This document shows, in pieces, positions 11,303 through 43,610 of a stretch of 64,000 bases of DNA. This stretch comes from Ascaphus truei (Eukaryota > Chordata > Amphibia > Anura > Ascaphidae). The position numbers and the translations under genes are program-made. The stretch lies in the NCBI GenBank assembly GCA_036426205.1, contig CM071568.1, positions 227,238,777 to 227,302,776 on the forward strand, given 5' to 3'. Numbering within the stretch: position 1 is the first letter of the stretch; every line of letters begins with the position of its first letter. Under the pieces are notes generated by a model. The model searched no databases, was not told where the DNA came from, and saw nothing but the letters and a program-made list of their open reading frames with translations.

Positions 11303-11353
11303 CACAGTGTGTGTGTGTGTGTGTGTGTGTGTTGTGTGGTGTTGTGTGTGTTG

Positions 11354-11391
<38 letters not shown>
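11303..11391. repeat. GT microsatellite at duplication breakpoint
   Basis: An interrupted (GT)n tract. A degraded version at about 20437-20510 precedes the second copy of the downstream sequence, so one edge of the large duplication falls in this tract. Confidence 0.85.
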
Positions 11392-11393
<2 letters not shown>

Positions 11394-13750
11394 ACATATT
11401 TATTATGCACGGAAACCAGGAATAACACTCACAAATAGTATGTATATTATTATTATTAAAATTATATTATTGTAAAGTAATATTTCTGGGGACTTTTTTT
11501 TAAAAATAGCCACCTTTATTATTTCCTTAGTAATGCTTTTTAACGCAACCATGAGAGGTTTGCTATTATTATTATTATCATTATTATTATCATTATTAAT
11601 ATGCTTTTTGGTCGTCAATACAAATACTGTACTTAGTCTGTAACCTTGACCTCCCAAGAAACCTTCATCAAATGTATGAAGTGTAATAAATAAGGTCCTT
11701 GCATTTGCAACAATGATAAAGGACAAAATAATATTTGACCTCACATATTAGATGCTGATAACACAGTTATCAGAGTGTGTTTGGTACATACAGGGTTATT
11801 AATTAAGATGCAATAGTGCCAATCGGGGCCCTATCGCAAGCAAACTCCCATTAAATGAATGAATGAATGAATGAATGAATGAATGAATTAATTAATTAAA
11901 TTGCAGCTTGGATAACTAACCTCCGTAGAGCAAGAACGGGTTTAAACAAAACAAAAAAACCAAATGTTGTTCATAATCAAATTGTCTTTACTTTATTAGT
12001 TTTCATTCTGATAACATGTTACATTAAGAAAGCAGACATGTGTTTTAATGCATAATTCTTTTGCAGGTGTTTTTTTTTTTTTACATATACTTTATTTGTC
12101 TACCATAAACTATGCGATATTTCCCTTTAGCTACTGTAGGTATACACATATTTGAACACAATCAGTAGTAATGGTATGACTTGTTGCATCTATGCATTTA
12201 CAGTATGCACTGATGTAAATTGCTGCATAAGCCTCTGTGTTAAAGAACTTACCATCTCATTTTGCTGCAAGAAATACAGGAAGATACACCAGGTTTATCT
12301 GCTTTAAATACCTCACAGTAACATTACCACTAACCTACAGTGCCAGCCTTCCTGTTATGTACAGTATTTAGAAAGTATATTACATGTATAAATCTTTTAA
12401 ACATGTCTTATATTGTTAAGCTAGCATGGACAATGTGTTAGATGGTTGAGGGCTTTTATTTTGTCTGCCTCCCAATGTATGTTTTTAAGTAGGACTGCAC
12501 CATTAAAATATGCCACTCAAACTGCCAATACTGTAAATCAATTAAATGAAATTCTAGAGAATCATCTTTTATAGCTCATGGGAAAAGGTATTCTGGGAGG
12601 AGTTTTACTGTAAAGCTATTCTGCAGTGGGAGGGATCTGAGCCTTGTTTTAAATGAGACACTTCATGATCTGGTTTTAACATTTGCAAGAGTCACTCAGA
12701 AGGGTCTGATATTTGTGTTTGACGGCATGAGCTTCTCTTCTTGTGAGTAAATCCACTATGTTTTCACTTGCCTACTTAGCTAGCAGAATTAAGTATTTTT
12801 TAAAAAGTCCAAATATATTATAAAATGTGTATGTAAATAGTGTAGGATAATACATGAATATTATAAGCAAGGAGAATACATATATAAACAGGTGAATTTA
12901 GCCTCAGTTTTGAAATGACAAATGCAGCAGTAATAGCATAATTTGCACTTTATCATGGTGAAAGATAAGTGCAAAATGATTGTGTTTTAGTGTTAAATTG
13001 TTAAAACATTCCATGTGAAAAAAATGAATGAATCTGCAATGTGCAAACAATGTAACTTAATCATTTGCCATATTGCTTTGAATTGCTATAATTGTTAGGG
13101 CTAAGTTATACCTACTAAATTGATTTGTGCATCACCATTCATTTCTGTTGGTGCAGAGATAGCAAAATAAAACAAAACAGTGGGACATTAATGATGCCAG
13201 TGGTAAAATGCAACTGTGACATTAAAAGTTTTATAAGACCCAATTATTATTATTTAACAGAAACCGTGCTACAGATATTTTCTAACTATGTCTTGCACAC
13301 TTGTGTATGATTAATAGTTGTACTTAGAATATAGTGTATTGTGTGACCTTTGTTGCCAGAGAGGATTGCAAAGCATTACTCAGATGTGTAATATATTGCA
13401 CTTTTACTTTGCTACCTGCCTCTGCCAGCAAACACTGTACAGTACATTGATTAAAGTCAGGCTGTAAAAATAACCCCGATAAATTCTTACACACGCAGTT
13501 TCTGCTCATTCATTGCTGAATATGAATTCTTTCAGGGGTTTGTCATGCGGATTGGAGAATAGGTTCCTTAAGATAAGTGTTGAAGCTCTCAACTCATTGT
13601 CTATAGACATCAGCTCCAAAACAAGCTCTTCTAAAGCCTTATTATGCATACGCTGCAACAACAACAAAAAGGCGATATGGGCAAACATACTCAAAAGACA
13701 CGGTGGGCTTGGAAGTCATGCTAGCCATAGAATTTCAAAAGCACTGTGCT
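11392..13750. other. AT-rich noncoding DNA with short microsatellites
   Basis: Contains TTA-rich tracts (11440-11600), (TGAA)n at about 11855-11887 and AT-rich unique-looking sequence. A 'cttcttgtgagtaaat' near 12740 resembles a splice donor but has no supported exon. Confidence 0.5.
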
Positions 13751-13765
13751 TGGAATATCTACAAC

Positions 13766-14420
13766 ATCCCTGTAAGCCCAGGTATAATACTATATCCCTG
13801 TAAGCCCAGGTATAGTACAATATCCCTGTAAGCCCAGGTATAATACTATATCCCTGTAAGCCCAGGAATAATACAATAACCCTGTAAGAACAGGTATAAT
13901 ACTATATCCCTGTAAGCCCAGGAATAACACAATATCCCTGTAAGCCCATGTATAGTACAATATCCCTGTAAACCCAGGTATAGTACAATATCCCTGTAAG
14001 ACCAGGTAAAATACAATATCCCTGTAAGCCCAGGTATAGTACAATATCCCTGTAAGACCAGGTAAAATACAATATCCCTGTAAGCCCAGGTATAGTACTA
14101 TATCCCTGTAAGTCCAGGTATAGTACAATATCCCTGTAACCCCAAGTATAGTACAATATCCCTGTAAGCCCAGGTATAATACAATATCCCTGTAAGCCCA
14201 GGTATAATACAATATCCCTGTAAGCCCAGGTATAATACAATATCCCTGTAAACCCAGGTATAATACTATATCCCTGTAAGCCCAGGTATAATACAATATC
14301 CCTGTAAGCCCAGGTATAATACTATATCCCTGTAAGCCCAGGTATAATACAATATCCCTGGAGTTAAGATATATAGAACAATTTCCCTGTAAACCCAGGT
14401 ATAGTCAATATCCATGGGAG
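13766..14420. repeat. 28-base minisatellite
   Basis: Contiguous units of about 28 bases, 'atccctgtaagcccagg' plus 'tataatacaat', repeated more than twenty times with point variants; the last units are degenerate. Because 28 is not a multiple of 3, reading frames cycle, which produces GLQGYC / YRDIV-like peptides that are not a protein. No spacers, so not a CRISPR array. Confidence 0.93.
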
Positions 14421-14716
14421 TTCAGATATATTTTGTAGCGTGCAGTAGCCACAGAATCTGTGGACACTCACATATGCTGCCCTTGGAAATCATAGAATAG
14501 TCATGTTATGGCAGCTAACCAATCTGAATTTCATGTAGAGATACAGTACTTGTAACACCTGCCCAGCTTAAAATGTGGGACGTGCAGACCCACAGTATAT
14601 AAAAGGCTTTTATCAATGGTGTCCCCTAAATAGAAGAGGTTTAGTTTAAATAATTATTTTACTTTAATACATTTTGATATCTGCTTTACAAGCATTATAG
14701 TGCTTTTGTTAATATG

Positions 14717-14921
14717 CTGTATTGCAGGGGTAGCCAACTCCAGTCTATATGAGCTATCAACAGGTCAAGTTTTAAGGATACCCTGCTTAGCACAGGGGAC
14801 ATAATCAGTGGCTCCGTTGAAGACTGACATATACAGCCCTCTGTGCTGAAGCAGGGATATACTGAAAGCCTGACCTGTTCATAGCTCTTGAGGACTGGAG
14901 TTGACTACCCCTGCTATACCG
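14717..14921. mobile_element. hAT-type MITE
   Basis: The element (14725-14913) begins CAGGGGTAGCCAACTCCAGT and ends with its near-perfect complement, ACTGGAGTTGACTACCCCTG. Flanking octamers CTGTATTG and CTATACCG agree at 5 of 8 positions, a decayed hAT-style target duplication. No transposase. A noisy copy lies at about 24038-24235. Confidence 0.7.
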
Positions 14922-16426
14922 TATATAAAGCATGATCAGCCTTTTAACAAACCTTTTTATCCTTTAAATAATAATTGCAACCTTCATGTTTGCTTTTTAA
15001 GTAAGCAAGTGTGTAATGATTGCTAGTAATAGCAAAGTTTCTGGGGAGCACAAACACTTTCTATAGCACGTACATCACACAAAAGTTTCTTCACAAAAAT
15101 GAAGCAAAGTTCATCATATCCCTGTATGTATTTAAATAACTCTTTAGCTATTGACAAATGAACCCAACAATTTGGTTTGCTTCCATGCTTCTTTACAGAG
15201 CTAAAGCATTATTGCTGCAGTACATGATGTAACCAGCCAGTAGAGGACTCTCGAAGCTTCATTAACAACGGCATCTACAGTAACAGTGGAAAATATTCTG
15301 AACTCGCAAAGAAAAGCTTAAATTTCTTGATAAGGTCCCTGGGAAGATGGACTTGGGTTATCAAAAATGGACGAGTCATCAGAATAGAATGTCTTAGCCT
15401 GGCTGTTCTGAGCATCATAAAGTGCAGAATGCAGGGCTTCAAACAAGACCTCCGTACAGTATAATACTGTATGCTACTTAATGTATGGATAAGAAGCAAA
15501 GAGTGACACACAGTGAATGCTCATTTGCATGTCGTTACCCAGAATCCCTGGCTGTAGAGTATGCATTGTTTGCTAATCACACATTTTGAATTTAAACCCT
15601 AAAATAGGGATTTTTGCTGTTAGAGAGAGAGAAAATCTACAGTAAGTGGAGAGATAGTCAGGCCCGCCAACAGGGGGGTCTGCTGGGGTTGGCATCCCGG
15701 GCCCGGTGACTCGGGGGGCCCATGTCTGGTGTTCCAAACAAAAGTGGGCAAATTACATCCGTTTTTTTTCCACCTCCATATATATTAAAATTGATATGAT
15801 TTAGAGGCAAACAAAACCATGTTTGGGAAATAGGAATCTTACATTCCAAATTCAAAACCCTTCCAACTTTGATAACCAAAACCAGAACACAAGGCTAAGT
15901 GCCCATCTCTACCGTGGAGTTGAAAACTTGTTTCTCGCCAAATCTTTTGTCTTTATTTTGAGTTTTTCCCATAATGTGGTAGAAATCAGAAAACCAACAA
16001 ATCAAACTAGAGCCACACCCAAAACACGAAAAATGTTTAGCGCTAAAACCAAAATGTGAGTGAGTGCCGATCCTAACCTCTTCTATTTCTTCTTTCTTTG
16101 ACCCCATATCCTGTGTGGTACAGTATATTGGTGCATCACCTCCACAGACTCCAATAGTATAATCTCCTTTAATAAATGCATCCAATGTCCAGGATCAATG
16201 TGTATAGAATGAACTCAATTGACCTCCCAGGGTGATGACCGGGACTTGTTGGTGCCCACACGGCTAACCAAACCACGTCTCCAATGGATATAAACTCACT
16301 CCTGGGGCAATAACAAAGAACAGTCCAGTAACGGAGGTAAAAAACGATGGGCTATGCCCTTTACCTTCCTTCCTTGGTATCCAGGTGAGAGGATTCTCCG
16401 GCGTGCAGCCCTCAATGGGTAGATTC
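14922..16426. other. Unassigned noncoding DNA
   Basis: AT-rich. A G/C-rich patch at 15658-15730 ('ggcccgccaacagg') and an 'accaaaaccagaacac' segment near 15880 look repeat-derived but were not classified. Confidence 0.4.
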
Positions 16427-17084
16427 AGAACAGCAGAGAGGAAGAGGGGCACAGCTCACAGCGAAAGCGTCAGCGAACGCAAGTAATGAGGGCAACTCCA
16501 AATGTGGGTAAAAATATATACTGCACCGACACACTTTATTCGAGCAAATACCCGGTATGTACCTGGCAGATACCTGGAATGCGCCACTCCTAACCTCTGA
16601 CAAGCCCCGTTGCATTTGCCTTCCCAGCCTGGGTTCATGCCTGGCTGACGGGCGGCTAATCTGTTAAATGATAATGATTAGGATTTAATAGGCTGCAATG
16701 CTTCGCGTGTCTACCAGATGGCATAAATTCATGAATTGTAATGCAGTTTATATATATATAATGTGCAGTATTGCAGCCAGCGGGAATAAAATGCTTCAAT
16801 CCCTGCTTGGAAAATAACTCAATGTACTCGGGCAGAAAACAGTCACAAACCTCAATACACCCGGGTATACCCGAATTCGTGGGACTAGCCAAGCTCGAAT
16901 TCGCCAAGTGTATACAGCTTATGGTCAGTACAGAGATAGGACCACGCACCAACGCGTGGTCCTATCTCTGTACTGACTATTAAAGCTTTATATATATTTT
17001 TACTCACATTTGGAGTTGCCTTCATTACTTGCGTTCGCTGACGCTTTCGCTGTGAGCTGTGCCCCTCTTCCTCTCTGCTGTTCT
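16427..17084. mobile_element. Element with 94-base inverted terminal arms and an inner hairpin
   Basis: Left arm 16427-16520 and right arm 16991-17084 are near-perfect reverse complements (three or so mismatches by eye), beginning AGAACAGCAGAG and containing 'cgaaagcgtcagcgaacgc'. Between them lies a perfect hairpin, with 24-base arms at 16924-16947 and 16954-16977 around a 6-base loop. No open frame of note and no clear target duplication. This could be a foldback transposon or an inverted pair of PLE terminal repeats. Confidence 0.65.
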
Positions 17085-17440
17085 GTTTCACCCCATATCG
17101 ACTGCAAATGGGAAAATAATTAATGCTGTCATGACTGTGACATGCGCGCCCGGCGGTCTGAGGGGAGAGAGGGAGCTTGCGACGAAAGGGGGCGTGGTCG
17201 GGGATTTGCGGGGGCATGGCCATCACGTCACGCGGCTGGTTCGCCCTCATTGGGTGAACCGCCGGTGGGGGCGTGGCCACGCCTCCGTCGCTAGGAGTAA
17301 ACTCAATTGCCCCTGCCTCCCTGAAAAGCTGTCGTGCAGAGCAGGAGGAAATTGCGCGTCAGGGTAGCAACTGGGACCAGAGGTACTGGGGGGCGGAGTT
17401 TAATCGCACAGCGCACGCTGACGTGCGCTGTAGTAATTAC
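17085..17440. repeat. GC-rich MITE-like segment
   Basis: CpG-rich, with 'ggggcgtggtc', 'catcacgtcacgcg' and a stem-loop pairing GGTTCGCC-side bases with GGGTGAACC around an ATTGG box (about 17237-17262). The stem-loop module is shared, in whole or in part, with 7030-7085 and 55550-55595. Ends not defined. Confidence 0.4.
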
Positions 17441-17630
17441 TGGGACCGCAGCCTAAGGATCAATCCAGACAAACCAATGTGTCTGATAGAGGGGAAAATT
17501 CCACCAGAGGAACAGAGTATGGGGTAAATGGGAGGAAGTAATGCCGTCTTACCCCTCCATGTAAACCCTGTGTCAATGTCTTAGTTCCACCGTCTGTGAT
17601 AGTGCAGAGTACTCCTCACTCTCACTCCTT

Positions 17631-17670
17631 GAGAAAGTGCATATTCTACGTGAAACACATGGGAGAACTA
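17631..17670 (+). ncRNA. Hammerhead-like motif, strongly degenerate
   Basis: CTTGAGA, then a possible AGTGC..ACGT helix II, then GAAAC and ACATGGG. It has the order of the hammerhead-type tails elsewhere in the window but lacks the canonical core. Noisy copy near 27053-27085. Confidence 0.3.
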
Positions 17671-17699
17671 GTTTGTTCACCACTTCTGCATGTCGTAAA

Positions 17700-18510
17700 T
17701 AAAGCCTTACCATTTGTCACTATTTTGGGGACCCCATTTTTTCATATTGCCAGCGGACCATCCAGATCTTGCTCGAGTGCCTCGGAGCAACCTCCACTGC
17801 TATTGCTATGGCACAGATATCCTGCACTAACTGTTTCTAATCCTTCCAGGTGCGCTATGGTTTAGTACTTTTCACTAAGCCCCGACCTACAACTCAGCCA
17901 ATTATATTCCACTTGGACTTGTGAGCTTGATATATAAACTCCCTATTACTTTTTTTGGTTAGCTAACAATAACCATCCTGCACCAGATGGGCAATTTAGC
18001 TCTGTTTTTTTTACACATGTAATTGTTTGGCTCAAACTATAACATGTTACAGCTCACTCTAGGATTTGTTTGCATTTTGCCAGTATAGTGTAGTTTCATT
18101 GCAGGCAGATATTTTGACAGTGTACATGTCATTGCTATGTGCTGCAGTATATCAAAAACATAAAAACATATTTCTCTGGCTTTCTTACAGATCATTAAGG
18201 AGAATGCTGTAATGGGTTGGCAGAAACCCGGCTCTTTCTGTGAGGTGAGGAGATCATCACGCTCTGTTATTTTTTTCTTTTCTTTCCTGGATTGAATTCA
18301 AACAAATCATGTGTATAACAGTTGGAAAAATGTGTATTTCTTTGGGTCAATATCCTTCTGTGTGTGTGTGTTAGTATATAGTATACAGTTTATATATATA
18401 CATATATATTATATATATATATGTATATATATTTTATATAAAAACAAACATCACAGCTTGCACTCAATGTACTGGTTCATATAGACAGGTGCTAGTCTCA
18501 AATAATAGAA
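17700..18510. other. Noncoding DNA flanking a candidate exon
   Basis: AT-rich sequence with microsatellite-like TATA tracts at 18390-18440. Apart from the candidate exon at 18191-18244 nothing was recognised. Confidence 0.4.
18191..18244 (+). CDS. Candidate internal exon, unrecognised
   Basis: A 54-base segment is preceded by a pyrimidine-rich acceptor (TTTCTCTGGCTTTCTTACAG, ending at 18190) and followed by GTGAGG, a reasonable donor. It is open in the frame that starts at its first base: 18 codons beginning IIKENAV and ending GSFCE, with no stop. I do not recognise the peptide. In the noisy second copy (about 27612-27664) one base is missing, breaking the frame, as expected of sequencing error. 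No partner exons were found in the window. Splice-like signals of this quality also arise by chance, so this is only a candidate for a host gene running through the region. Confidence 0.25.
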
Positions 18511-18780
18511 AAACAACATTACCATTCTCTCGTCCGGTAAAGAAAAACTGCACTCGGTTCAGTAATAATGAAAAACTGTATTGGGCATCTGAATAGAAAA
18601 GATAAGTCACCCAATCCGACGTTTCGGTCCTGGAATCCCTTGAAGAAAGTCCTATTACCAGGACCGCAACGTCGGATGGGGTGACTTATCTTTTCTATTC
18701 GAATGCCCAATACAGTTTTTCATTATTTCTGAACCGAGTGCATCTTTCTTTACCGGACGAGAGAATGGTAAATGTTGTTT
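18511..18780. repeat. Long palindrome of two inverted PLE-like tails with hammerhead-like centre
   Basis: Left arm about 18511-18633 and right arm about 18658-18780 are reverse complements with few mismatches; both hold 'gtattgggcat', 'gataagtcac' and 'ctctcgtccggtaaag'. The centre carries a hammerhead-like fold. A noisy copy is at about 27930-28190. Confidence 0.8.
18634..18680 (+). ncRNA. Hammerhead-ribozyme-like motif at palindrome centre
   Basis: Helix I pairs ATCC (18635-18638) with GGAT (18674-18677). The core reads CTTGAAGA in place of CUGANGA. Helix II pairs GTCCT (18649-18653) with AGGAC (18660-18664). GCAA stands in place of GAAA, followed by the self-complementary ACGT that would be helix III, and C before GGAT. 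The minus-strand reading of the left arm keeps GAAACGTCGGA intact. The architecture is right but core bases are changed, so it is probably inactive. Confidence 0.5.
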
Positions 18781-18789
18781 TTTTTATAT

Positions 18790-19440
18790 ATTTTATATAT
18801 ATATACAAATGATCTGCAATATAGAAGATCTAAGTATTGAAAAATAAAATAAAATTTTGATCAAGTTATAGTTAGTAAATACATGTCACTCTGCATAAAA
18901 TAAAGTTTACGGAGAACTTTATTATACTACGTAAGTTTTATATCAGTAAGTAACAATTACTATCTACATGGGATCACTTCATTAAACCATCTGTATTTAG
19001 ATACTAAGGACAACTGATCATTATTAAATGGTTTTGCATCTAGCATGGCTTCTCACCTGGTTTGCCTGCCATGATGTCCCGCTGACCCTTCGCCAACTTT
19101 CATCATGCTCCTCCCCCCCCCCCCCCCTTCCTGTGGGAGGGATCAGGTGGCACTGTAAACACTGACTGGAGCTTGTCCCCATGCTCGTTATTTTTAGAGC
19201 ATTGGTCATGGTGCATTAAATATTTCTTCCCCAGAACTAGGGTGAAGCAGAGGAGCAGGGAAGATATAATCCAATATACTGACATGAATGAACAAAACCA
19301 TAGGTGGCGCCAAGTGGGGGAGATTGTGTCTGATCGTACAAAGGGGTGGAGATTACTTGAGTGTTGTAGACAGGCAGAGCATGAGCTGGTGTCGAGGGTT
19401 CATTGTGCGTCTCCCCTCCCCTTCCCAACTAATATTCACC
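18790..19440. other. Unassigned AT-rich DNA with a C-run
   Basis: A poly-C tract near 19112-19127 differs in length from copy 2. Nothing coding was seen. Confidence 0.4.
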
Positions 19441-20416
19441 CTCTTTAACATCTCCCTCTCGGGAAGAGAGAGAATCGCCCCTCACCGCGGGCGGGCGGAG
19501 GGACGGGGGGGGGGGGGGGCAGATAGCCACGCGGGGTATAAGGTGTGGGGGCCCCACAACCTTAATACTTCAGCTGGCTGTCAGACTGGCCATATTCCCT
19601 ACCTGAGCCCACCATTCCTCAATGAGCAGACCCAAATTTACATTACCTTCTTGTTCAACATTGTTTCTCATTCCTTTTAGGAGGATGTCAGAAGAGCATT
19701 GCGTCACGGATACTTCTGAGGGTTGCCGGGCGGGTGGGGGGGGAGTACAAACGTGGGGGGAGGGGGGAGAGAGGGGGGAGGGGGGGTCGCGCCCCGCGCG
19801 GGGGGGAGGCGAACTCTCTTTATAGCTCTTTTCTGCATGTTTCGTCTGCTGGCACGTTCAACCTTCCCCGCCTCTCACGACGGATCGGTGCCGGGGGCGG
19901 TCGCGAACTACGTAGGCAATCCACTTCGTGTGCGGGGGGGAGAGCGGTCGGGCGTATGCTGAGGTACAGCATGCACTGACTAGCGGGTCGGGGGTTAGCG
20001 TTGGAGGATCAGACAGTCTCAGTGGTTGCGATCCGCCCAGTGTCTGTAGGAAGTACCGACTCGCGCGCTTTGCGTGTGCGCGTTGCGGAAGAGGGGTGCG
20101 GCCGAGGGGCGGAGCGGTGGCCACCTCAATTCTCCTCCTCACTTTTAAGCTTTACACTCTTCTCTCTTCTGCCCCTCCTTACATCCAGCCTAATTTCTCT
20201 CTATGTGCACCATCCCGACTCTTGCGTTCTGTTTAAGGATGTCTTCTCTGTCCCACCCTTTTTATCTACCGCTCTCCCACCTTAAACCTGTCTCACTACT
20301 ACCCCACACCTGTAATGCCCTCACTGTCAATACCCAACTAGCATCCCTCCAATACCCGACTGCAACCTCTCTAACCCACTTTAGACCCCCACCTTAAGAC
20401 CCTTGCTTAGACTAGG
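19441..20416 (+). pseudogene. L2-type LINE 3' region, interrupted
   Basis: The part at about 20125-20240 translates to SILLLTFK..., a short gap, then APPYIQPNFSLCAPSRLLRS, which resembles the end of L2-clade reverse transcriptase ORFs (LLLTFKAL..LAPPY). It is followed by the pyrimidine-rich 3' region. Between about 19490 and 20110 the sequence is G-rich and unlike copy 2, where the same LINE region (29700-30250) is continuous. That G-rich block is either an insertion or sequencing noise. The LINE's 3' tail is cut at the duplication junction near 20416. Confidence 0.5.
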
Positions 20417-23022
20417 GTGATGTCGCTGGCCCTGTGTGTGGTGTGGTGTGGGGGTTGGTGTGTGCTGTGTGGTGTGCTGTGATGCCGCTGGTGTGTGTGG
20501 GTGTGTGTTTACATATTATTATGCACTGAAGAACCCAGGACAATAACACTCCAACATAGTATGTATATGATTATTCTAGTTAAAGGATAGTATTGTAAAG
20601 TAATCATTTCCTGGGCCGACTTCTTTTTAAAAATCAGCCACCGTTATTATTTCCTTAGTACATGCTTTTTAACGAACAGGAGAGCGTTGTGCTATATTAT
20701 TATTTAAATAATTATTATTATCCTTATTAATATGCTTTTTGGTCCGTCAATACAAATACATGCTAATTAGTTCTGTCACCTTGACCTCCCAAGAACCTTC
20801 CTCAAATGTATGAAGTGTAAAAAATAAAGGTCTGTGCATTGGCAACAATGATTAAAGACACAATAATGATGACCTCACATATTAGATGACTGAGAAAAAC
20901 AGTTATCAAGAGTTGTGTTTGGTACATAAAGGGTTATTAATTAATGCAATAGCTGCCAAGCGGGCCCTATCGCAACGCAAACTCCCTCCCATTAAATAGA
21001 ATGAATCGAATGAATGAATGCATGAATGAATTAAGGTAATTAAATTAGACGCTTCGGATAACTAACCTCCGGTATAGTAGCAAGAACGCAGGTTTAACAC
21101 AAAACAAAAAAACAATGTGTTCATAATCAAATTTCTTCTTACTTTATTAGTTTCATTCTGATACATGTTACATTAGAAAGCAGCAAATGTGTTTTAATGC
21201 ATAATCTTTTGCAGTGTTTTTTTTTTTTTACATATACTTTATTGTCTACCATAAACTAGGCCCCCCGAATTTCCCGTCTAGCTACTGTAGGTATACACAT
21301 ATTTGCAAACAACAATCAGTAGTAATGGTATGACTTGACTTGCATCTAGAAATTTCCAGTATCGACATATTTAGTAAATTGCTGCATAAGCCTCTCGTGT
21401 GAAAGAACTTACCATCCTCTTTTGCTGCAAGAAAATACAGGAAGATACACCAGGTTTATCCTGCTTTAAATACCCTCACAGTTAACAGTACCACCTAACC
21501 TACAGTGCCAGCACTCCTGTATGTACAGTCTTGTAGAACAGTAATATTTACAGTATAAATCTTTTAAACATGTATTATATTGTAAGCTAGCCTGGCAATG
21601 TGCTTTGATTAGCATGCGTTGAGGGCTTTTATTTTGTCTGTCCTCACAATGGATGTTTTTACAGTGGACTGCACAATTGAAAATATGCCACTTCAAACTG
21701 CCAATACTGTAAATCAATTAAATGAAATTCTAGAGAATAATCTTTTTATAGCTCATGGGGAAAAGGCCTAATTCTGAAGGAGCGAGTTTTACTGTTAAAA
21801 AAAGCTATTCGCAGCCTGGAGGGGATCTGAAGCCTTGTTTTGAAATGAGACACTTCATGATACTGGTTTTACATTTGACCCAATGAGGTCACTCAGAAGG
21901 TCTGATATTTGTAGATTGACGCATTGAGTCTCTCTTGTGAGCAAATCAACTAGTCGTTTCACTTTGGCCTACTTAGCTAGCAGAATTAAGTATTTTTAAA
22001 GTAGTACCAAATTATATTATAAAATGGGTATGTAAATAGTGTAGGATAAGACATGAATATCTATAAGCAAGGAGAGGACTACATATATAAACAAGGCATG
22101 AATTAGCATCAGTTTTGAAAAAGGGACAAATGCAGCAGTAATAGCATAATTTGCCACTTCTATTCATGGTGAATGATGAAGATAAGTGCAAAATGATATG
22201 TTGTCTTTAAGTGTTAAATTGTTTTAAAATCATTCCCATGTGAAAAAAATGAAATGAAGTCTCAATGTGCCAAACCAATGTAACTTAATCATATGGCCAT
22301 CTATTGCTTTGAATTGCTATTCATTGTTAGGGCTAAGTTATACTTACTAAATGAGATTTGTGCATCACATTATGTCTGTTGAGGCAGAGATAGCAAATAA
22401 ACCAAACCGATGGCGACATTAATGATGCCAGTGGATAAACATGCAACTGCTGACATTAAAAGTTTTATAAGGAACAATTATATATTATTTAACAGAACCC
22501 CCGTGCCTCAAAAGAATATTTTCTAACTATGATCTTGCCACACTTGCTGTATGATTAATAGTTGGTACATTAGAATATAGTGTATTGTGTGCACCTTTGT
22601 TAGCCCAGAGATGGAATTAGCAAAGCATTACTAAGAGTGTCAATATATTCGACACTTACTTTGGCTTACCTGCCTCGCCAGCAAACACTCGTACCAGTAC
22701 CTGATTAAAGTCAGGCTGTAAAATAACCCCGAAAATCCTTATCACACGCAGTTATGCTCATTCATTGCTGAAATGAATTCTTTCGGGGTTGTCATGCGAT
22801 TGGAGAAGAGGTATCCTTAAGATAAGCTGTGAAAGCTCTCTCAACTCATTGTCCTATAGACACAGCTCCAAAACAAGATATTCTAAATAGACCTTATTAT
22901 GATTACGCTGCCAACAACAACAAAAAAGGCGAATATGGGCCAACATACTCAAAAGACCGGCTGGCGCTGGGAATCATGTAGCCATCAGAATTTCAAAAGC
23001 ACTAGTGCTTGGCAATTCTACA

Positions 23023-23700
23023 ACATCCCTGTATAGCCCCGTATAACTACTATATCCCTGTAGCCCAGCTATAGTACAATATCCCCCATGTAAGCAGGTA
23101 TACATACTATATCCCTGTAAGCCCAGGAATAATACAATAACCCTGTAAGAACAGGTATATACTATATCCCTGTAAGCCCAGGAAGAACACAATATCCTAA
23201 GATTAAGCCCAATGGATAGTACAATATCCCTGTAAAACCCAGGCTATAGGACACTATCCCTGTAAGACCAGGATAAAATACAATATCCATGTAGCCCAGG
23301 ATATAGCTACAATATCCCTGTTAAGACAGGTAAAAGACAATATCCATGCACTAAGCCCAGTATAGAAAGTACATAGATCCTGTAAGTCCAGCGGTATGAG
23401 CTTACAATATCCCTGTAACCCCAAATGTATAGTACAATATCCCTGTGTAAGCCAGGTATATACAATATCCCTGTAAGCCCAGCGCCCCCCCGCTATAATA
23501 CAACTATCCCTGTAAGACCCAGTATAATACAATATCACTGCCGAAACCATGAGTATAATACTATATCCTGTAATGCCCCAGGTATAATACAATATATGTA
23601 AGCCCAGGTATAATACTATATCCCTGTAGCCAGGTATAATCAATATCCCCTGGATGTAAGATCATAAGAAACAATTCCCTCGTAACCCAGCGTATAAGAT
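23023..23700. repeat. 28-base minisatellite, noisy copy
   Basis: The same array as 13766-14420, with many unit-breaking indels and C-run insertions. Confidence 0.9.
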
Positions 23701-24037
23701 CAATATCCATGGGAGTCAGATATATTTTGTAGGCGTGCAGTAGCCACAGAATCTGTGGACACTAACATAATGCTGCCCTTGGAATCATAGACATAGTCAT
23801 GATTAACTGGGCAGCCGACTAACCAATCGTGAATTGCATGTAGAGATACAGTACTGTAACACTATTCCCAGCTTATTTAAAATGTGGGAACGTGCAGCCC
23901 ACCGTATATAAAAGGCTTTTATCAATGCGTGAGTCCTAATAGCAAGAGCCGTTAGTTTAAATAATTATTTTCACTTTAATAACTGTTGATATCTGCTTAC
24001 AAGCATATCTAGGTGCTTGGTTAATATGCTGATTGCA

Positions 24038-24237
24038 GGGGTAGACCAACTACCAGTCTATATGAGCTATAACAGGATCAAGTTTTAAGGATATACCCTG
24101 CTTAAGCACAGGGGACATAATGCAGGGTCTGTCCGTTGGAAGACTGACATTATACAGCCCGTGTGCGAAGCAGGGATATACTGAAAGCCTGACCTGTTCA
24201 TAGCTCTGAGAGGGATGGAGTTGACCTACCCCGCCAG
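24038..24237. mobile_element. hAT-type MITE, noisy copy
   Basis: Corresponds to 14725-14913; termini are recognisable but carry small indels. Confidence 0.6.
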
Positions 24238-25849
24238 GCAGTGACGATAGACAGCTGATCACTCTTTTAACAATACCTTGTATCCTTTAACTATATAATT
24301 GCAACCTTCAATGTTTCTGTTTTTAAGGTAAGGCAAGAGTGTAATGATTGCTTTAAATGCAAAAGTTTTGGGGGAGCACAAACACTTTCTAGAGACACGG
24401 TACATCATCACACAAAGTTTCTTCACAAAATAGAGTACAAAAAGCATTCATCAATTCCCTGTATGTATTAAATAACTCTTAGCTAATGACAAATGACCCA
24501 CAATTTGGTTTCTCCCATCTTCTTTACAGCAGACTTAAAGCATTTTAGCTTGCAGTACATGATGTAACCAGCCAGTGATAGGACTCTCGCAAGCTTCATC
24601 TTAACAACGGCATCTATACAGTAACAGTGGAAAATATTCTGAACTCGCTAAAGAAAAGCCTTAAATTTCTGATAAGGTCCCTGGAGAGAATGGACTTGTG
24701 TTATCAAAAATGACGAGTCACTCAGAATGAGAAATGTCTTAGCCTGGTCTGATTCTGAGGCATCATAAGTGACCCGAAGCAGGGTCTTCAAACAAAGACC
24801 TCCGTCCAGGTATAATAATGTATGCTACTTAATGATTGGTAAGAAGCAAAGATGACACCCATTGGAACTGCTCATTTGCATGTCGTTTACCAACCAGAAT
24901 CCCCCCGCCCCCCCCATGGTGTACTAGTATGCATGTGTTTGCTAATCACACATTTTTGAATTTAAACCCTAAAATCTGGATTTTTGACTGTTAGAGAGGA
25001 GAAACTCATCACAGTAAGTGGAGAGATAGGTCAGCCCGCCAACAGGGGGGTCCTGCTCGAGGGGTTGCACCTGACCGGGCCGGTATGACTCGGGGGGCCC
25101 ATGTCTGGTGTTCCAAAACAAAGTGGGCCACAAATTACATCCTGTTTTTTTTCCACACCCATATAGCTATTATAAATTGATATGCATTTAGAGCAACAGA
25201 AAACCTTTTGCCGGAAATAGGAATCTTGCCATTCCACATCAAAACCTTCCAACGTTAGACAAAAAACCAAAACCTAGAACACAAGGCCTAAGCTGACCCA
25301 TTCCTCCTACCGTGAGTGGGGAAAACTATGTGTGGCCGGCACCAAACCTTTGTCTTTGATGTGGAGCTTGTATTCCCATGAATGTGGTGAGGAAATCAGA
25401 AAACCAACAAAATCAAACTGAGCACCAACACCCAAAACACGAAAAATGTGATTATGGCGCTGTCATAACACAAAAGTGAGTGAGAGCCGATCCATAACCT
25501 CTTCTATGTCTTGCCTTTCTTCTGACCCCATTCCTGTGGGTACAGTAGATTGGTGCATCCACCTCCACAGACTCCAAAGTATAATCTCTTTTAATAAATG
25601 CATCCAATGTCCAGGATCAATGTGTATAGAATGAACTCAATTGACCTCCATGGGTGATGACCGGGACTTGTTGGTGCCCACACGGCCTAACCAAACCACG
25701 TCTCCAATGGATATAAACTCACTCCTGGGGCAATACAAAGACCAGTCCAGCATTAACGGAGGTAAAAAAACGATGGGCGTATGCCCTTTACCTCCTCCTT
25801 GGTATCCAGGTGAGGATCTCCGGCGTGCACCGCCCAATGGGTAGATTCA

Positions 25850-26510
25850 GAACAGCAGAGAGGAAGAGGGGCACAGCTCACAGCGAAAGCGTCAGCGAAC
25901 GCAAGTAATGAGGTGGCACTCAAATGTGGGTAAAATATATACTACACCGACACACTTTATTCGAGGCAATACCCGTGTACCTGTCAGATACCTGGAATGG
26001 CGCCACTCCTAACCTCTGACAAGCCCCCGTTGCATTTGCCTTCCCAGCCATGGGTTCATGCCTGGCTGACGGGCGGCTATATGTTTAAATGATAATGATT
26101 AGGATATTAATAGGCTGCAATGCTTCGCGTGTCTACCAGATGGCATAATTCATGAATTGAATGCAGTTTATATATATATAATTGCCAGTATTGCAGCCAG
26201 CGGATATAAATGCTTCAATCCCTGCTTGGAAAATAACTCAATGTACTCGGGCAGAAAACAGTCACAAACCTCAATACAACCGGGATATACCCGAAATTCG
26301 TGGGACTAGCCAAGCTCGAATAAAGCTGTGTGTCGCCAAGTGATTAATAAAGCTTAATGGTCAGTACAGAGATAGGACCACGCACCAACGCGTGGTCCTC
26401 TCTGTACTGACCATTAAAGACTTTTATATATTTTTACTACATTGGGAGTTGCCTTCATACTTGCGTTCGCTGACGCTTTCGCTGTGAGCTGTGCCCCCTT
26501 CCTCTCTCTT
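25850..26510. mobile_element. Inverted-arm element, noisy copy
   Basis: Corresponds to 16427-17084. The inner hairpin is present near 26360-26415 but one arm has lost two bases. Confidence 0.65.
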
Positions 26511-27929
26511 CTGTATTTTCACCCCATAATCGACTGCAAATGGGAAAAATAATTAATGCTGTATGACTGTGACATGCGCGCCCGGCGGTCTGAGGGGAGA
26601 GAGGGAGCTTGCGACGAAAGGGGTGGGGTCGGGGATTTTGCGGGGCAATGGCCATCACGTCACGCGCTGGTTCGCCCTCATTGGGTGAACCGCGTGGTGG
26701 GCGTGGCACGCCTCGTCGCTAGGAGTAAACTCAATTGCCCCTGCCTCCGTGAAAAGCTGTCCGTGCAAGCAGGAGGAAATTGCGCGCAGGGTAGACAATG
26801 GACCAGACGGTATGGGGGCGGAGTTTAAATCGCACAGCGCACGCTGACGTGCGCGTAGTAATTATCTGGGACCAAAGCGCTACTAAGGATCAATCCACAA
26901 ACCAATGTGTCTGCAATAGAGGGGAAAATTCCACCAGAGGAACAGAGTATGGGGTAAATGGGAGAGTAATGCCGTCTTACCCCTCCATGTAAACCCTGTG
27001 TCAATGTCTTAGTTCCACCGTCTGTGATAGTGCAGAGTACTCCTCACTCTCATCCTTGAGAAGCATATTCTACGTGACACATGGAGAACTAGTTTGTTCA
27101 CCACTTCTGCATGTCGTAAATAAAGCCTTACCATTTGTCACTATTTTGGGGACCCCATTTTTCATATTGCCAAGCGCGACCATCCAGATCTTGCTCGAGT
27201 TGCCTCGGAGCAACCTCCACTGCTATTGCTATGGCACAGATATCCTGCACTAATGTTTAATTCCTTCCAGGGGCGCTATGGTTTAGTATTTTTCACTAGC
27301 CCCCCGACCTAAACTCAGCCAATATATTCCACTTGGACTTGTGAGCTTGATATATAAACTCCCTATTACGTTTTTTGGTTAGCTAACAATAACCATCCTG
27401 CACCAGATGGCAATTTAGCTCTGTTTTTTTTACACATGTATATTGTTTGGCTCAAACTATAACATGTTCAGCTCACTCTAGGCTATTTGTTTGCATTTTG
27501 CCAGATAGTGTAGTTAGGTTCATTGCAGGCAGATTTGACAGTGTACATGTCATTGCTATGTGCTGCAGTATATCAAAACAAAAAACAGATTTCTCTGGCT
27601 ATTCTTATCAGATCATTAAGAGAATGCTGTAATGGGTTGGCAGAAACCCGGCTCTTTCTGTGAGGTGAGGAGGGAGATCATACGCCTATGTTATTTTTTT
27701 TTTCTTTCCTGGATTGAATTCAAACAATCTATGTGTATAACAGTTGGAAAAATGTGTATTTCTTTGGGTCAATATCCTTCTGTTGTGTGGTAGTGTTAGT
27801 ATAAGTATACAGTTTATATATACATATATATTATATATCAATATATGTAATATATTTATATAAAAACAACATCACAGCTTGCACTCAATGTACATGGTTC
27901 ATATAGACAGGTGCTAGTCTCAAAATAAA

Positions 27930-28190
27930 GAAAAAACATTCATTCTCTCGTCCGTGTAAAGAAAACTGCACTCGGTTTTCAGTAATAATGAAAAAACTGT
28001 ATTGGGCATCTGAATAGAAAGATAAGTCACACCAATCCGACGTTTCGGTCCCCCTTGAGAAAGGTCCTATTCCAGGACCGAACGTCGGATTGGTGAAGGA
28101 CTATCTTTTCTATTCACGATGCCCAATACAGTTTTTCATATTTCTGAAACCGAGTGCAGTCTTTCTTTACGGACGAGAGAATGGTATGTG
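27930..28190. repeat. Palindrome of PLE-like tails, noisy copy
   Basis: Corresponds to 18511-18780 with small indels in both arms and at the centre. Confidence 0.7.
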
Positions 28191-28225
28191 TTTTTTTTAT
28201 ATATTTTATATATATATACAATGAT

Positions 28226-28280
28226 AGGGGGGAGGGAAAGAATACGTATTGAAAAGAAAATTGATAGTAATGAACAATGT

Positions 28281-28328
<48 letters not shown>

Positions 28329-28644
28329 GTAAGGGGTAAAGTTCGGAGAACTTAGGGGGGGGGTACAGGGTTTACATTAGACTCATGGGATCACCCCGAT
28401 CATAAAAGAAAACAACACAAAAACAAAAAAAAAAAAAAAGAAAAAACCCAAAACAAACAAAAAAAAAACAAAAAAAACTCCAAAAAAAAAAAAACAACTA
28501 CAAAAGCTCAAAACGACCACAACGCGCACTACTCCTTGAAAATACTTCAAAAAAAAAAAAAAAAGGTGGGGGGGGGGGGGGGGCGGGGGGGGGGGGGGGG
28601 GGGGGGCGGGGGGGGGGGCGGGGGGGGGGGGGGGGGGGGGAGGT

Positions 28645-28681
<37 letters not shown>

Positions 28682-28734
28682 GGGGGGGGGGGGGGGGAGG
28701 GGGGGGGGGGGGGGGACGACAGGGGGGGGGCAAA

Positions 28735-28765
<31 letters not shown>

Positions 28766-29135
28766 TTAAGAAACACTCCCCTAGCGACTCCGGCGCGCCC
28801 GCCCAGCAACGCCTACAAAAAAAAAACAAAAAAATAGGGGGGGGGGGGGGGGGGGGGGGGGGGGAATCAACCAAACCACAGTCACAATCGTCGTCGAAAG
28901 ACGCGCCGCCCCGTTTTTTTTTTTTTTTTCAAAGAAAAAAAAAAAAAAAAGAAAAAAAAAAAAAAAAATAAACAAAAAAAAAACAAAAAAACAAAAAAAA
29001 AAAAAAACAAAAAAAAACGAAACAAAAAAAAAAAACAAAAAAAAAAAAAAACCAAAACAAAAAACAACAAAAAAAAAAACAAAAACAAATCGTGAAAAAA
29101 GGGTGTTTTTAAAAACCCCTGATCGCTTTGACAAA
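28226..29135. other. Homopolymer block, likely sequencing or assembly artefact
   Basis: About 0.9 kb of long G-runs, A-runs and short C-punctuated A tracts. It replaces roughly 45 bases of ordinary sequence seen in copy 1 (about 18808-18855); the flanks on both sides align to copy 1. Poly-P/F/K/G open frames here are meaningless. Confidence 0.88.
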
Positions 29136-29639
29136 TAAAATAAATATTTGAATCAAGTATATAGTTAGTAAATAAAATGCACTGCATAAATAAAGTTTAC
29201 AGGAGAACTTTAGTTAAAATACTACGTAAGTTTCATCATAAGTAGTAACAATACATTCTACATGGATCACTTCATTAACAATCTGTATTAGGATACTAAG
29301 GACAATGATCATATTAAATGGTTTGCATAGATAGCCATGCGACCTATCTCACCATGGTTTGCCTACATGAGTGTCCGCTGACCCTTCGCCAACTTTCATA
29401 GCTCCCCCCCATTCCTGTGTGGAGGGAGTCAGGCGAGCACTTAAACCCCCTGACTGGAGCTTGTCCCCCCACATCGCGTATATTTTTAGAGCATGCGTCA
29501 TAGGGCATTAAATCATTCTTCCCCAGACTAGGGTGAAGCAGAGGAGCAGGGAAGATATAAATCAATATACTGACATGAATGCAACAAAACCATATACGGT
29601 GGCGCCAACGTAGCGGGAGATGTAACGTATTGTTTCTAA

Positions 29640-30690
29640 GCATATCAAAAATCATCTCAACTCCCCTTCCAACTAATATCTCACCCTCTTTAACCATCTC
29701 CTCTCCCCCCGCACCCCCCTACAAACCCTCTAATACCTTCAGCTGCGACTGTCAGACTGCGCCATATTATACTGAGCCACACCATATCCTAAATGAGAAG
29801 ACACATTAATATACTCTGGTTTCAAATTGTTTCTCATTCCTTTTTAAGAGTGTAGACTCTCACAAGCAGGCCTCACCAACCTCTTATAGCTGTTTGTGCC
29901 ATGTTTCTGCACCTGTTGACTCTTCCTGCCTCTCTACTGTATTCCCTACAATCTATCTTAAACGCTCGCTCGTCATGAATCATTACTCTTTCCTAGATCT
30001 GTCTCAGCGTAATCCCCTGCCGAAAGCCCTCTCATGGCTTCCTATCAAAATCCCGAATCTCACACTCAATTCTCCTCCTCACTTCTTAAATGCCTTTACC
30101 TCTTCAAGCCCCACTCCTTACATCTCAGCCCTAATTTATTCTCGATGCACCATACCGATCTCTGCGTTCTCTGTTAAGGATGTCTTCTCTAGCACTACCA
30201 CCTTTGTATCTAAATGAAAGTCTCCACCTTAAAACCTGTCTCACGTAACTACCAACACCGCTGTAATATGCCCTTCCACTCAATACCCAATAGCATACCC
30301 CCCATACCGACTAAGCACCTCTCACAACTGTAAGACCCCCCACCTTAAGACCCACTTGCTTAAAGAAGATACAGTATGAGCTAGCCCCACGCGCGATACT
30401 ATACACATGATACTTAGAAGCTGGCCCACTGCTAGACGCCAATTACCAGAATCCCTCCTACTGTACTCTGTACTGTCATCCTAACCCTTAACATTAGATT
30501 TATGTAAGATCTCTGCGAGCCCTGGGACTCCTCTTCCTTGAAATATTACTTTTATGTGCTGAAGCCCACTTATTCCCATGATCGATATATTCGATTATTT
30601 GTTAGTTATATGATGGTCAAGTGTATACTACTTTGAAACTCTATGTATATGAATTGCCGCTATGAAATAAATAAAGACATACATACGCTA
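29640..30690 (+). pseudogene. L2-type LINE 3' end with ACATAC tail
   Basis: This includes a decayed RT C-terminus (SWLPIKI, then frameshifted LLTF and SPTPYIS-like text). After a pyrimidine-rich 3' region it has 'ccctgggactcctcttcc', 'cttttatgtgctgaag', 'atgaaataaataaag' and a short ACATAC-type microsatellite. This is the layout of L2-like 3' ends in frogs, where the terminal repeat primes reverse transcription. Frameshifts are abundant, partly from the read noise of this copy. 30371-30690 lies beyond the duplicated part. Confidence 0.6.
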
Positions 30691-32110
30691 CATACAATGT
30701 CAACATTTAGTCCCCAAAAGCATCATGTTGTACCCTATCAGTGTGAAATAAAACTGTAGCACATACACACATATGTATAAATTTTAGTTTATGTAGCGTC
30801 AATAGTGAACAAAATGACAAAGTACAGGCAAAGTAAGTGCACACAGTGAGTATTATGAGCAGTCAATAAAATTTATAACAAGGCAAAAGGAGGCCATACC
30901 CAAAAAGCTTACAAATCTAAGTAAAATGTATCAGGTCAATAATGAATGCTTCACACAAAAAAGTGCTTGGGTGACTAGCAATCGCAACCTCCTCAGTCAG
31001 TGGTGGGATGCCTGGATTACCTCCGTTGCGGGGACTATTGAAAAGAGTCATGATGTGTGATCAACTAAACTGCACAGATGCTATTCTTTATAGTTATGTC
31101 TCGAACATTCTAAAGCGTGTTCATGGAAAGGATCAAAAGCAGTCTGTTTTTCTTAATCAGCCAAAGTTTTGCTTTATATTCATGGATAGGGCATGAGAGT
31201 TTTTTATTGAGGGTTCTGTTAAGGAAAAACTGGAAGGGAGCAGTCACAAATTGTAATTGGAATTATAAGGCATCCCACAGAATCAAAGCTCACTCCAGCT
31301 AGGCTTTCTTGGTGGAGTACCTGGTCTATGCCGCGTGTAGGCATATACATTGGGCATTGGCAGATCCCAGTAACTGTACCTTGTGTCACTTCCATACATA
31401 CACATTTTACCAGTGAACATGACAGCCTGGTTCCTATACCTAACGTTGTAGTTGGCATGGTTACCACACACTGAGTTCAGCTAAGTTTTAGGAGTGAGGC
31501 GGAAAAAGCTACTTTAATTCAAGTGAAAGGTACGCAGAAAGTTCATTGTTTCTAGCAAGGTCTCTCCAATGAATTTACAGTAATTAGTGGCCAGGATGTA
31601 AAAAAAAGTTTTTTTTTAAAATGTCAGCACAAGTGCACCTGGACCTAATGCATTTGATGGTACATTTCATGTCCAGCTGGAATACGATAAGACATGTGCT
31701 GTTGTTTTCGGGATCTCGCAGACTTGGCTGGGCAACTACATATAAAAGCCAGGCGTGAGGAAACGTGGAGAAAGATAAGAGAGGAACATTTGTCAAACCA
31801 ATAATACATATCGACGAATCAGATGTTGCCAATAATAGAATCTCACTGGCATGTTGCATCATGGGACATTACCAACAGCACAAGCGGGGGGCGAAGCTAT
31901 GTTCTGAAACAGCCACATCAACAAAGCCAGCAGTGCTAGGCCACATATCACACAGCGCTAGCACTGCTAGCAGACAAATAATGTTAGCGCCCTTTTATTA
32001 GGCGCGTTCACACTGGGGACATTCGCGACCATGTGGCGCGTGTGCGCGCCTGTCTGTGGGCAGATGTTTGATCATCCCCAGCAGATAGAATGATATAGAC
32101 CCAGGCGACA
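30691..32110. other. Unassigned noncoding DNA
   Basis: No recognised repeat or coding signature. A G/C-rich run begins near 31985 ('ttaggcgcgttcacac'), possibly a MITE end without a partner. Confidence 0.4.
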
Positions 32111-39710: not shown

Positions 39711-40600
39711 AATGTTTCTTTTATCATGATTCTTTCTCCTCATGTATTTTTTCTATTCCATAAAGACAAGCCATTATTTTATTAGTGGTCTTAGACTGTC
39801 AGCATTTAGCGATATGTGTAATGCTGGCCATCAAAAAGTTCCACGTCTATACCGTGCTCTCCTATGGCCAGATCCAGAAAACTCTGTTAAGTGACTTAAC
39901 GGGGCGTTACCTACAGTAAGTTAACATCACGTGAAGCCTTAACGTGTATCTTCAAGCGCCAATAACATAACGTTAAGTCCGGTTTTCTCCCGGAAACTGC
40001 ATTGCATTAACGGATTGTGACAATTAAATACAAAAGATGCATTTACCTTAACAGCGCAATCAATCTATTCAGGGTAACGCAGTGACCTAACATTACATCA
40101 GTAAAGTCATAATTAAACTTGACATTATTTACATCTAGACCCTGAAAAAAAGGTTTATCTGTGGTGAAGGTGGATGCTAATTTAAATAATTTGAATATAA
40201 TTTGACTATTCAAATAAGTTTTTCCCAGTTATCTCAGTTGTGTTCATAAGTATCTCCCCACATGTTCTATAGAGGAGTGTTTTGGGAGGTACTGTATATA
40301 CTGTAAGTCAATATCTACTCTACTAAATAGTACCCTATTTCCTCGATTGTAAGACACCATCGATTCTAAGAGGTGATTTACAGTAATTAAAAAAAATTGG
40401 GGGGGAAATCCCATTATATTAAATGTGCAGATTTTTTTTTTTTTTTAACTAGCAGGGTCACATGATCCTTCAATAACCAATGGGGGGGGGGGGGAGAGAG
40501 AGAGAGAGAGTAGTCAGAGACTAAGATGTATTAGTCAGCACTCCCCAAAGTGGAGTTAGGTTCTTTGTTTATGTTTTGTTCCTGATTTGTATCTTGTAAA
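39711..40600. other. Unassigned noncoding DNA
   Basis: A segment near 40340-40380 ('ctcgattgtaagacacc', 'atcgattctaagagg') looks like a MITE end. A G-run followed by (GA)n lies at 40483-40510. Otherwise unassigned. Confidence 0.4.
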
Positions 40601-41509
40601 TGTAACCCAAATTCCCCCCCCCCCCCCCCCCCTAGACTCATCTGACATATCTAGGGTGTCTGAGGGCGGATTACATGTACTTAGTGGTGCGTACCTGTGT
40701 GGAACAGGAGGGCCTGAGTCTCCCGCGGTGGTGTGGGGGATCACAGGACCAGGCTTCTGGGGTAATAGCCTCCATGCTTTCAGTGGTGCAGCGCCTCCAT
40801 CCTCTATACTTCCAGGGATGTGGGATAGGACCTGTATAGAAGAGTGAACCCTGGTCCCAGGGTTGGATGCTCCAGAATCACACAACAGTTTTTGATATAA
40901 AAGGTAATGTCTCTCTTTATTGGCACAAGTGGCAACAAGCAGCCACAACAACAACAGCAATGTCCCGCTTATCACTCGACCCTCCGCTCTGTACAGGTCT
41001 TTCCTCCTCTCCTTCCCTCCAAGTTTACCCTCTGACAGGATGGACTGGGCTGGGGCGTCAATACCCCACTACCCACCTCAGAGGATATCCTCTGGGTGGG
41101 GGATGGATTCTCCCCATCACCCCAGCATCGGGGTGAGGGGCATTGGTCCACCTGGACTATGGTGCTATCAACTCTACTCAAGGTGGCTGAGTCTCTCCTC
41201 TCCTCTCACTTGCATGCTCCAAGCTCAGACTCTGCTTCAGCTCTCTCCAACTCCCTGCTTCAGCACCCTCCAACTCACTGCTTCAGCACTCTCCAACTTA
41301 CTGCTTCCACTCCCTCCAACTCACTAGACTCACAGGAGCAGCCCACTAAATAGAGACAGCCCCGCCTATCATGATGTCAGCAGGCCCCTCCCCTGTGTCT
41401 CTGCCTGCACACAGAGTCAGGTGGCCTACCTCCATCAATCAAGCCAGGGCTTGAAGCGGGGGAAACCCATGATCACTACTGGTGCCTGCCCTTAACAGGA
41501 CTTACCACA
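40601..41509 (+). mobile_element. LTR-like element, TGTAAC family, divergent copy
   Basis: It starts TGTAACCCAAATTCCCCC, matching the starts at 44093 and 60739, and contains the shared 'cagcgcctcca' and a 'ttattgg' segment in the same order. The proposed end, ...CTTACCACA, is tentative; the flanks (gtaaa / gtagg) match only partly. No coding capacity. Confidence 0.4.
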
Positions 41510-41912: not shown

Positions 41913-43610
41913 TTAAATATTTCTTGAATTAATCTTCCAAGAGTGCTGGATCTATTTTGTAATTGATGTACCTCTCCCACATCCGTGGCACCTGGGTGTA
42001 TCCTACAATACACATAGATATAATGTAAGTGAGCTCTTGTATATATACTGTACCAGAATATATATTATGTATATGCATACATACTATAGGGTATTTTTTT
42101 ACATTTATATTTAATTATTCAACATCTGGTTAGCTCGGCCTCCCCCTCACCTTGTCCCTTTCACTCCCAGCTACATCAATCAGCCCCGTCCCACCCTACA
42201 AATCCCCTTTCCCTCTCACCCCCCAAAACTTTCCCTTCTCTGGTGGGAAATTGCTGAAATAACCCACACAATTTACAGCTCAGTGATTCCCATACTCTGC
42301 CAAGAAAAAGCCACGACATCATTAGGAGATGATGTTGTGGAATTTCCTTCTTTCTATTGGTGACTGACTACCATCTTTGATTTGTCTTTACTGCACTTAC
42401 TGGCAAATGATAAAGTGAATCTAATGAACAAGGGGATGCAAGATCTATAAGCAGTGCAGCTGCAACCAGTATAGTACTTAAAAACACATTGGGGGGGGGG
42501 GGGGGATTACTGCTTTAGTTATAGTTCAATGGTTGAGATCTCATATAGTACAGCACATATACAGTATTCTCATACTAAGACCTGCTTAAACCTTAAGGTG
42601 GGCTTTTAACATTCACTAAAAGTACTGAGAGACGGTACTCCAGAAATCCTTATGCCTTTCAGGGAGCATCGTGTTATGATTGCTCATTTTCAAGAGTGGA
42701 GCCCACCCCTCTTCACTGGGGACTGGTTGCAACCACTTGATCGCTATCCCAAGCATGATCCTGGAAAACCAGCAGCAGACTCAGGGCCGGGCAGACTTCC
42801 AGCAGTGAAAGAGTCAATATTATTTATACATTTTCAGGATGGTAAAGAGCGTGAACATCATTTTGTGCAATGCCATTGACGTTAAAAAAAATTCAAATGA
42901 GATTTCGATGGTTGAAAAATACTGAAATGTGGAAATGTCCCGAATCCAACGTTTAAATGATTTTGGCAACCGTATTATTCTGGACTGAAATGCATTTCCA
43001 CATGGCTGTCACCTCATCACTACGTGAATCAAGTGCAGCATTTCCTGGCTCTCACTCCAGTTGGCTCACAATCGCCCCATCAATTTCCAGGGAAAAATCG
43101 AAAATTGAAAACAGGGTCTGAAAGCTGCATACCCCAGTTTACAAATCACCAGTATGTTATTCCCACCTCATAATCACGTCATTGTCTACTTTCTACCTTG
43201 AGGCCTATACTCAATAATATTGCGTACATGAGGCATCTCCATACTTCCGTAAGATGCAAATGAAGTTCGGGCGTCCACTACTCACTCTTTTTTGTACTCG
43301 GCAAATGGATGAGTTCCATTAAATTGGAAGCAGAGAAGGTAAAACATCACAGAAACCCCTTTTAAAATGACCCAGATTAAGGGCATATTGAGGCAATGGT
43401 CAACGTGTGGTATTACGAGGGAGTGCAAAGGACCACTACTATTTTATTTACAAAGCCACAAAGTGCATTTTATTTACATGCTTACAATGAGATTTTATTT
43501 TGAAATAAAAGAGATGCATTTTTTAATCAAAATTCTCACTCTGACTCTTCCAATGTTTATACTATACAGTACCTAAGACTTAAAGATTAAACAGATACAG
43601 GACCATTACC
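41913..43610. other. Unassigned noncoding DNA
   Basis: AT-rich, with a G-run at 42491-42506. No coding or repeat family recognised. Confidence 0.45.

Follow-up and report, generated by a model that had tools for sequence, protein, structure and literature searches.

Two described kinds of surplus sequence in genome assemblies come close to what is reported here. In the account of the Vertebrate Genomes Project (VGP), homotype false duplications lie near contig boundaries or arise from sequencing errors, and are often of about read length (PMC8081667, PMC9516828). The same project restricted the program PBJelly to spanning reads 'to avoid greedy gap closures' (PMC8081667). PBJelly extends into gaps at one or both ends, according to a mouse lemur paper (PMC5689209), and in the DENTIST paper its fills had a mean identity of 88.6-95.2% in three simulated data sets, with some gaps being 'overfilled' (PMC8848313). 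A further paper deals with frog assemblies, two of them made with PacBio continuous long reads (CLR) and PBJelly, a pipeline that would fit; no link between them and the genome considered here was found (PMC10794172). Our subject is a segment of about 9 kb that is present twice, head to tail, in a 64,000-nucleotide stretch of the Ascaphus truei assembly (G000:C2:227,238,777-227,302,776; hereafter the window, to which coordinates refer unless another source is named), the searched assembly comprising 2.82 Gb in 19,235 contigs. The duplicate is very probably a false copy, generated when two unpolished read extensions were laid end to end; it most likely belongs to a known class of assembly error and is not a biological feature.

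With the homotype false duplications it shares being a tandem copy of the same locus on one scaffold, tied to sequencing errors; copy 2, at ~10 kb, may also have the length of a long read, and a putative contig boundary near 18,837 is placed by the onset of noise. The differences between the copies are likewise of sequencing type rather than haplotype variants. Unlike the described cases, which are defined by read depth and k-mers, this one is judged from assembly letters; here also there is no gap between the copies, and one of them is nearly a raw read. The likeness to an overfilled gap of the PBJelly type is that the inserted sequence has raw-read identity, 85-92% here, and that both extension from one or both gap ends and excess fill have been reported, the use of a gap filler being in the present case presumptive.

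The segment at about 11,307-20,430 (copy 1) recurs at about 20,431-30,390 (copy 2). The main blastn block pairs 11,318-18,813 with 20,433-28,225 over 8,017 columns at 87.7% identity, with 243 mismatches, 593 gap openings and 745 gap bases; a second pairs 18,837-19,324 with 29,128-29,621, and laxer scoring adds 20,125-20,409 against 30,065-30,362 plus two short pieces in between. All blocks are collinear and in one orientation, a global alignment spans the whole segment, and both copies carry a 28-bp minisatellite (13,760-14,413 and 23,019-23,708) and a long palindrome (18,500-18,793 and 27,923-28,206). The order and orientation given in a preliminary description of the window are thus confirmed. 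There is no N run in the window, and sequence on both sides of the junction between the copies is noisy. The start of copy 2 is put at ~20,431, the transposon match of the copy 1 tail ending at 20,430-20,436 in three of six comparisons but already at 20,409 in the remaining three; the shared sequence ends on the right at ~30,362 by alignment and perhaps at 30,390 by eye. When the genome was searched with 20,417-22,500, two matches were long, the query itself and copy 1, the remaining 43 of the 45 listed being of ~65-90 bases at the (GT)n start of the query; since 40 of 169 candidates were scored, there may be a third genomic copy.

What sort of differences separate the copies? Between 20,430-28,220 and copy 1 there are, over 7,208 aligned pairs, 136 substitutions (15 of them transitions) and 648 indel events, the latter consisting of 405 insertions (583 bases) and 243 deletions (282 bases) in copy 2. 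A count of indels against substitutions had been put forward in the preliminary description as a check on its proposal that raw long-read errors, not divergence, set the copies apart, and the outcome supports that proposal. The errors are unevenly spread, with a sharp shift in rate at ~25.6 kb. The stretch 20,430-25,600 has 122 substitutions with 483 inserted and 173 deleted bases in 4,688 aligned pairs (14.6% of columns differing, identity 85.4%), against 14 substitutions with 100 inserted and 109 deleted bases in 2,520 aligned pairs at 25,601-28,220 (8.2% and 91.8%). That differences are densest at 20.4-25.6 kb was correctly seen beforehand, but the region to 28.2 kb that had been called clean is only cleaner. 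Patchy polishing, suggested on that basis, fares likewise: the noise is patchy, but ~8% of columns still differ in the supposedly polished part, and the noisy tail of copy 1 described below had been missed.

For controls, seven same-strand repeat pairs within set limits of length and distance were taken from two 60-kb windows elsewhere. Together they have 157 mismatches and 24 gap openings, versus the 243 and 593 that the same program gave for the two copies, and no indel-rich pair like copy 1 and copy 2 was present among the seven listed. The natural spectrum expected of a real tandem duplication is therefore not what the copies display, as would also be so for a real copy known only by raw reads.

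Which copy holds the errors? As references for polarizing the differences there were a transposon copy on contig C3, terminal repeats, palindrome arms, related pieces and the minisatellite consensus. Edit distances were chosen because three-way MAFFT counts wrote balanced indels as substitutions. Of the 244 edits in 11 partly dependent comparisons, 211.5 fell to copy 2 and 32.5 to copy 1; the margin was narrowest at one palindrome arm, with 12 for copy 2 versus 7 for copy 1. Within 11.3-18.8 kb the noise is thus mostly private to copy 2. Two references used with MAFFT only, L021 and L022, were left out of the 11 comparisons because they overlap with the L028 comparison. With L021, 11 private letters fell to copy 2 and 2 to copy 1; L022 is taken up below. 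The minisatellite affords a similar picture: against its 28-bp consensus copy 1 has 35 substitutions and 5 indel events, and copy 2 has 42 and 58, with Tandem Repeats Finder reporting 87% matches and 1% indels for copy 1 versus 68% and 18% for copy 2.

The noise is not confined to copy 2. It also fills the tail of copy 1, starting between 18,837 and ~19,110 and lasting to 20.43 kb; here copy 1 has 17 private blocks of at least 8 bases, mostly G-rich, against none for copy 2. At the junction this error texture switches: in 20,530-25,600 copy 1 has no private blocks of at least 8 bases, whereas copy 2 has two. To the right, the noise reaches at least 30,683-30,696, the end of the reference repeat family. 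The repeat at 30.04-30.69 kb has further copies in the genome, six of which differ among themselves, over 15 pairs, by 650 substitutions, 315 of them transitions, and by 124 indel events, or 0.19 indel events per substitution, against 1.25 for 30,040-30,696 versus the six and 1.35 for the copy 1 tail (20,122 to 20,409-20,436) versus the six, each of these two ratios coming from one sequence compared six times. A genome search with 30,040-30,760 points the same way, since all 40 non-self matches listed, with 40 of 4,174 candidates scored, are shorter than the query span (one, for instance, has 597 bases to 657 of the query), indicating private insertions in the window there. The extent of this noise, out through the copy 1 tail and to ~30,690, goes beyond the preliminary description.

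Small insertions in copy 2 at 20,530-25,600 are A or C in 256 cases versus G or T in 145; its deletions there divide 79:87, and the private letters of the tails divide 61:17 for copy 2 and 30:24 for copy 1 (p = 0.007). The idea that the two extensions derive from opposite strands was not borne out by these figures; deletions in copy 2 would also yield the copy 1 tail ratio.

Also absent from the preliminary description is a block of ~860 bases of G- and A-run junk in copy 2 (28,261-29,127), where copy 1 is uninterrupted. Such runs are abundant in the assembly, a run of 32 G having 17,971 forward and 18,616 reverse overlapping matches. Two other places on C1, taken from the first listed G-run matches and picked for clustered runs (L036:3650-4856 and L037:2875-3012), both have long C/G-run blocks, like the block in the window, beside minisatellite arrays with many gaps between units. 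The best unit pairs of the arrays there have mismatches and gap openings of 73/78, 68/116 and also 49/28. Since similar junk is present elsewhere, the block in the window need not reflect anything about this locus.

The features on which the proposed history draws are, from left to right:

11307..11391, no strand: (GT)n tract that forms the left margin of copy 1 (Tandem Repeats Finder and sequence); copy 2 begins at its counterpart, ~20,431-20,510.
11307..18836, forward strand: accurate part of copy 1, with its small share of the private edits in the 11 comparisons (32.5/244).
13760..14413, no strand: 28-bp minisatellite as present in copy 1; relative to the consensus it has 35 substitutions and 5 indel events.
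18500..18793, no strand: palindrome of copy 1, 294 bp, just before the apparent end of accurate sequence.
18837..20430, forward strand: tail of copy 1, read as the unpolished left extension (17 private blocks), with clear noise from ~19,110.
20431..25600, forward strand: noisiest stretch of copy 2, by alignment to copy 1.
23019..23708, no strand: the minisatellite as present in copy 2; relative to the same 28-bp consensus it has 42 substitutions and 58 indel events.
25601..28260, forward strand: less noisy stretch of copy 2, by alignment to copy 1.
28261..29127, no strand: junk block of long G and A runs, absent from copy 1.
29128..30390, forward strand: last shared stretch of copy 2, noisy.
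30391..30690, forward strand: single-copy continuation of the noisy stretch, being the 3' part of a transposon-like repeat.

A plausible course of events is as follows. Accurate sequence would stop near 18,837, just past the 294-bp palindrome, a spot at which sequencing and assembly could well break down. An unpolished long-read extension reaching in from the left would then have given 18,837-20,430, and another such extension, with its anchor beyond ~30,690 on the right, would have given 20,431-30,690. Going leftward, the latter would cross the missing stretch, bear the junk block immediately after its own version of the palindrome, and then re-cover ~7.5 kb already in the contig, back as far as the (GT)n tract near 11.3 kb. 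Some 1.5 kb of real sequence would be common to the two extensions; noise in each of them, together with the junk inserts, may have hidden the overlap, and the extensions were then joined end to end at ~20,431 rather than overlapped. The less noisy middle of copy 2 suggests that more than one read may have contributed. Both the order of these steps and the lack of a second copy in the animal are inferred from assembly letters, as is the falseness of the duplication, which the preliminary description had held to be probable and which the present comparisons support. A gap filler was presumably used, and PacBio CLR reads are proposed as the read type because inserted bases exceed deleted bases in copy 2. 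Errors in such reads are mainly insertions. The passages of PMC8672642 gave no error rates.

Several observations do not sit comfortably with an origin in read extensions. The 11 comparisons are partly dependent, two palindrome-arm pairs and one terminal-repeat pair having served as mutual references and part of 14,709-14,929 having been reused with another reference, and the MAFFT counts with L022 split evenly, 3 for copy 2 and 3 for copy 1. Nor is richness in indels the preserve of copy 2, for between the palindrome arms within copy 1 there are 5 substitutions and 7 indel events, and in a tandem array outside the window (L013:4056-5301) gap openings outnumber mismatches in the best pair, 57 against 50, though that array may itself be raw sequence. 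Then there is the left edge of copy 2, which falls where the (GT)n tract begins (20,431-20,510, corresponding to 11,307-11,391 in copy 1); a random read end would seldom be expected just there, and the coincidence is unexplained.

That same edge gives some substance to the best surviving alternative, which we nevertheless judge improbable: a real and very young tandem duplication of ~9 kb, with breakpoints in the (GT)n tract, a plausible site of rearrangement, and in a transposon-like 3' end, where short reads collapsed onto copy 1 and copy 2 was filled by an unpolished long read. The same noise would be expected of it. However, accurate sequence appears to pass the left edge of the segment at 11.3 kb and to stop inside it at ~18.84 kb, the character of the errors shifts at the junction, and the real divergence would have to be very low, at most ~0.4%, this figure following from 15 transitions in 7,208 pairs if about half of natural changes are transitions. 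None of these three points is decisive. Less probable again is a false duplication of other origin, in which a second haplotype or a separate noisy contig was put adjacent by a scaffolder and not by a gap filler. The sharp borders of copy 2 and its mosaic of error rates would suit such a contig, whose end the (GT)n left edge could be, but candidate allelic differences are few (the 15 transitions) and a scaffolder's join has no N run in the window to mark it. An old real duplication whose second copy decayed naturally would fit the 8-15% of columns that differ between the copies, but it can be dismissed, given indels ~5 times as numerous as substitutions, 15 transitions in 136 unlike the control pairs, and noise that extends over the copy 1 tail and into single-copy sequence to ~30,690.

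If the duplicate is indeed the product of joined read extensions, it serves as a warning about quality: a copy of this kind inflates counts of repeats and of segmental duplications, and might be mistaken for a paralogue in rapid decay. With junk at both of the chosen places on C1 and 32-G matches so abundant, a screen of the assembly for indel-rich tandem copies and for clustered long G or C runs would be worthwhile.

Some minor observations may be added. Solitary G or C runs, 13, 19 and 15 bases long, are present in the window at 40,482-40,632 and 42,491-42,505. A GA-rich minisatellite array at 4,253-6,012, with units of ~26, 48 and 74 bases, has many indels between units and may be natural or raw sequence. 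At 2,039-2,404 there is an inverted repeat with 80% identity over 370 columns that resembles a miniature inverted-repeat transposable element, and a 173-amino-acid open reading frame at 59,694-60,215 had no match in Pfam. Outside the window, a 48-N gap lies at L014:5189-5236, ~10 kb beyond the L013 tandem array. Elsewhere in the assembly, COX1 (G000:C15843:8401-9744, L035; genetic code 2) has as its top-ranked relative a 601-member cluster labelled Hynobius (95%), followed near the head of the 120 rows listed, out of 7,999 scored, mostly by frogs at 91-93%, with eels, other fishes and a salamander in between; this points to an amphibian, probably a frog. The gene sits on a contig of 35,274 bases, and as the usual vertebrate mitochondrial genome is about half of that length, the contig is possibly doubled or mixed.

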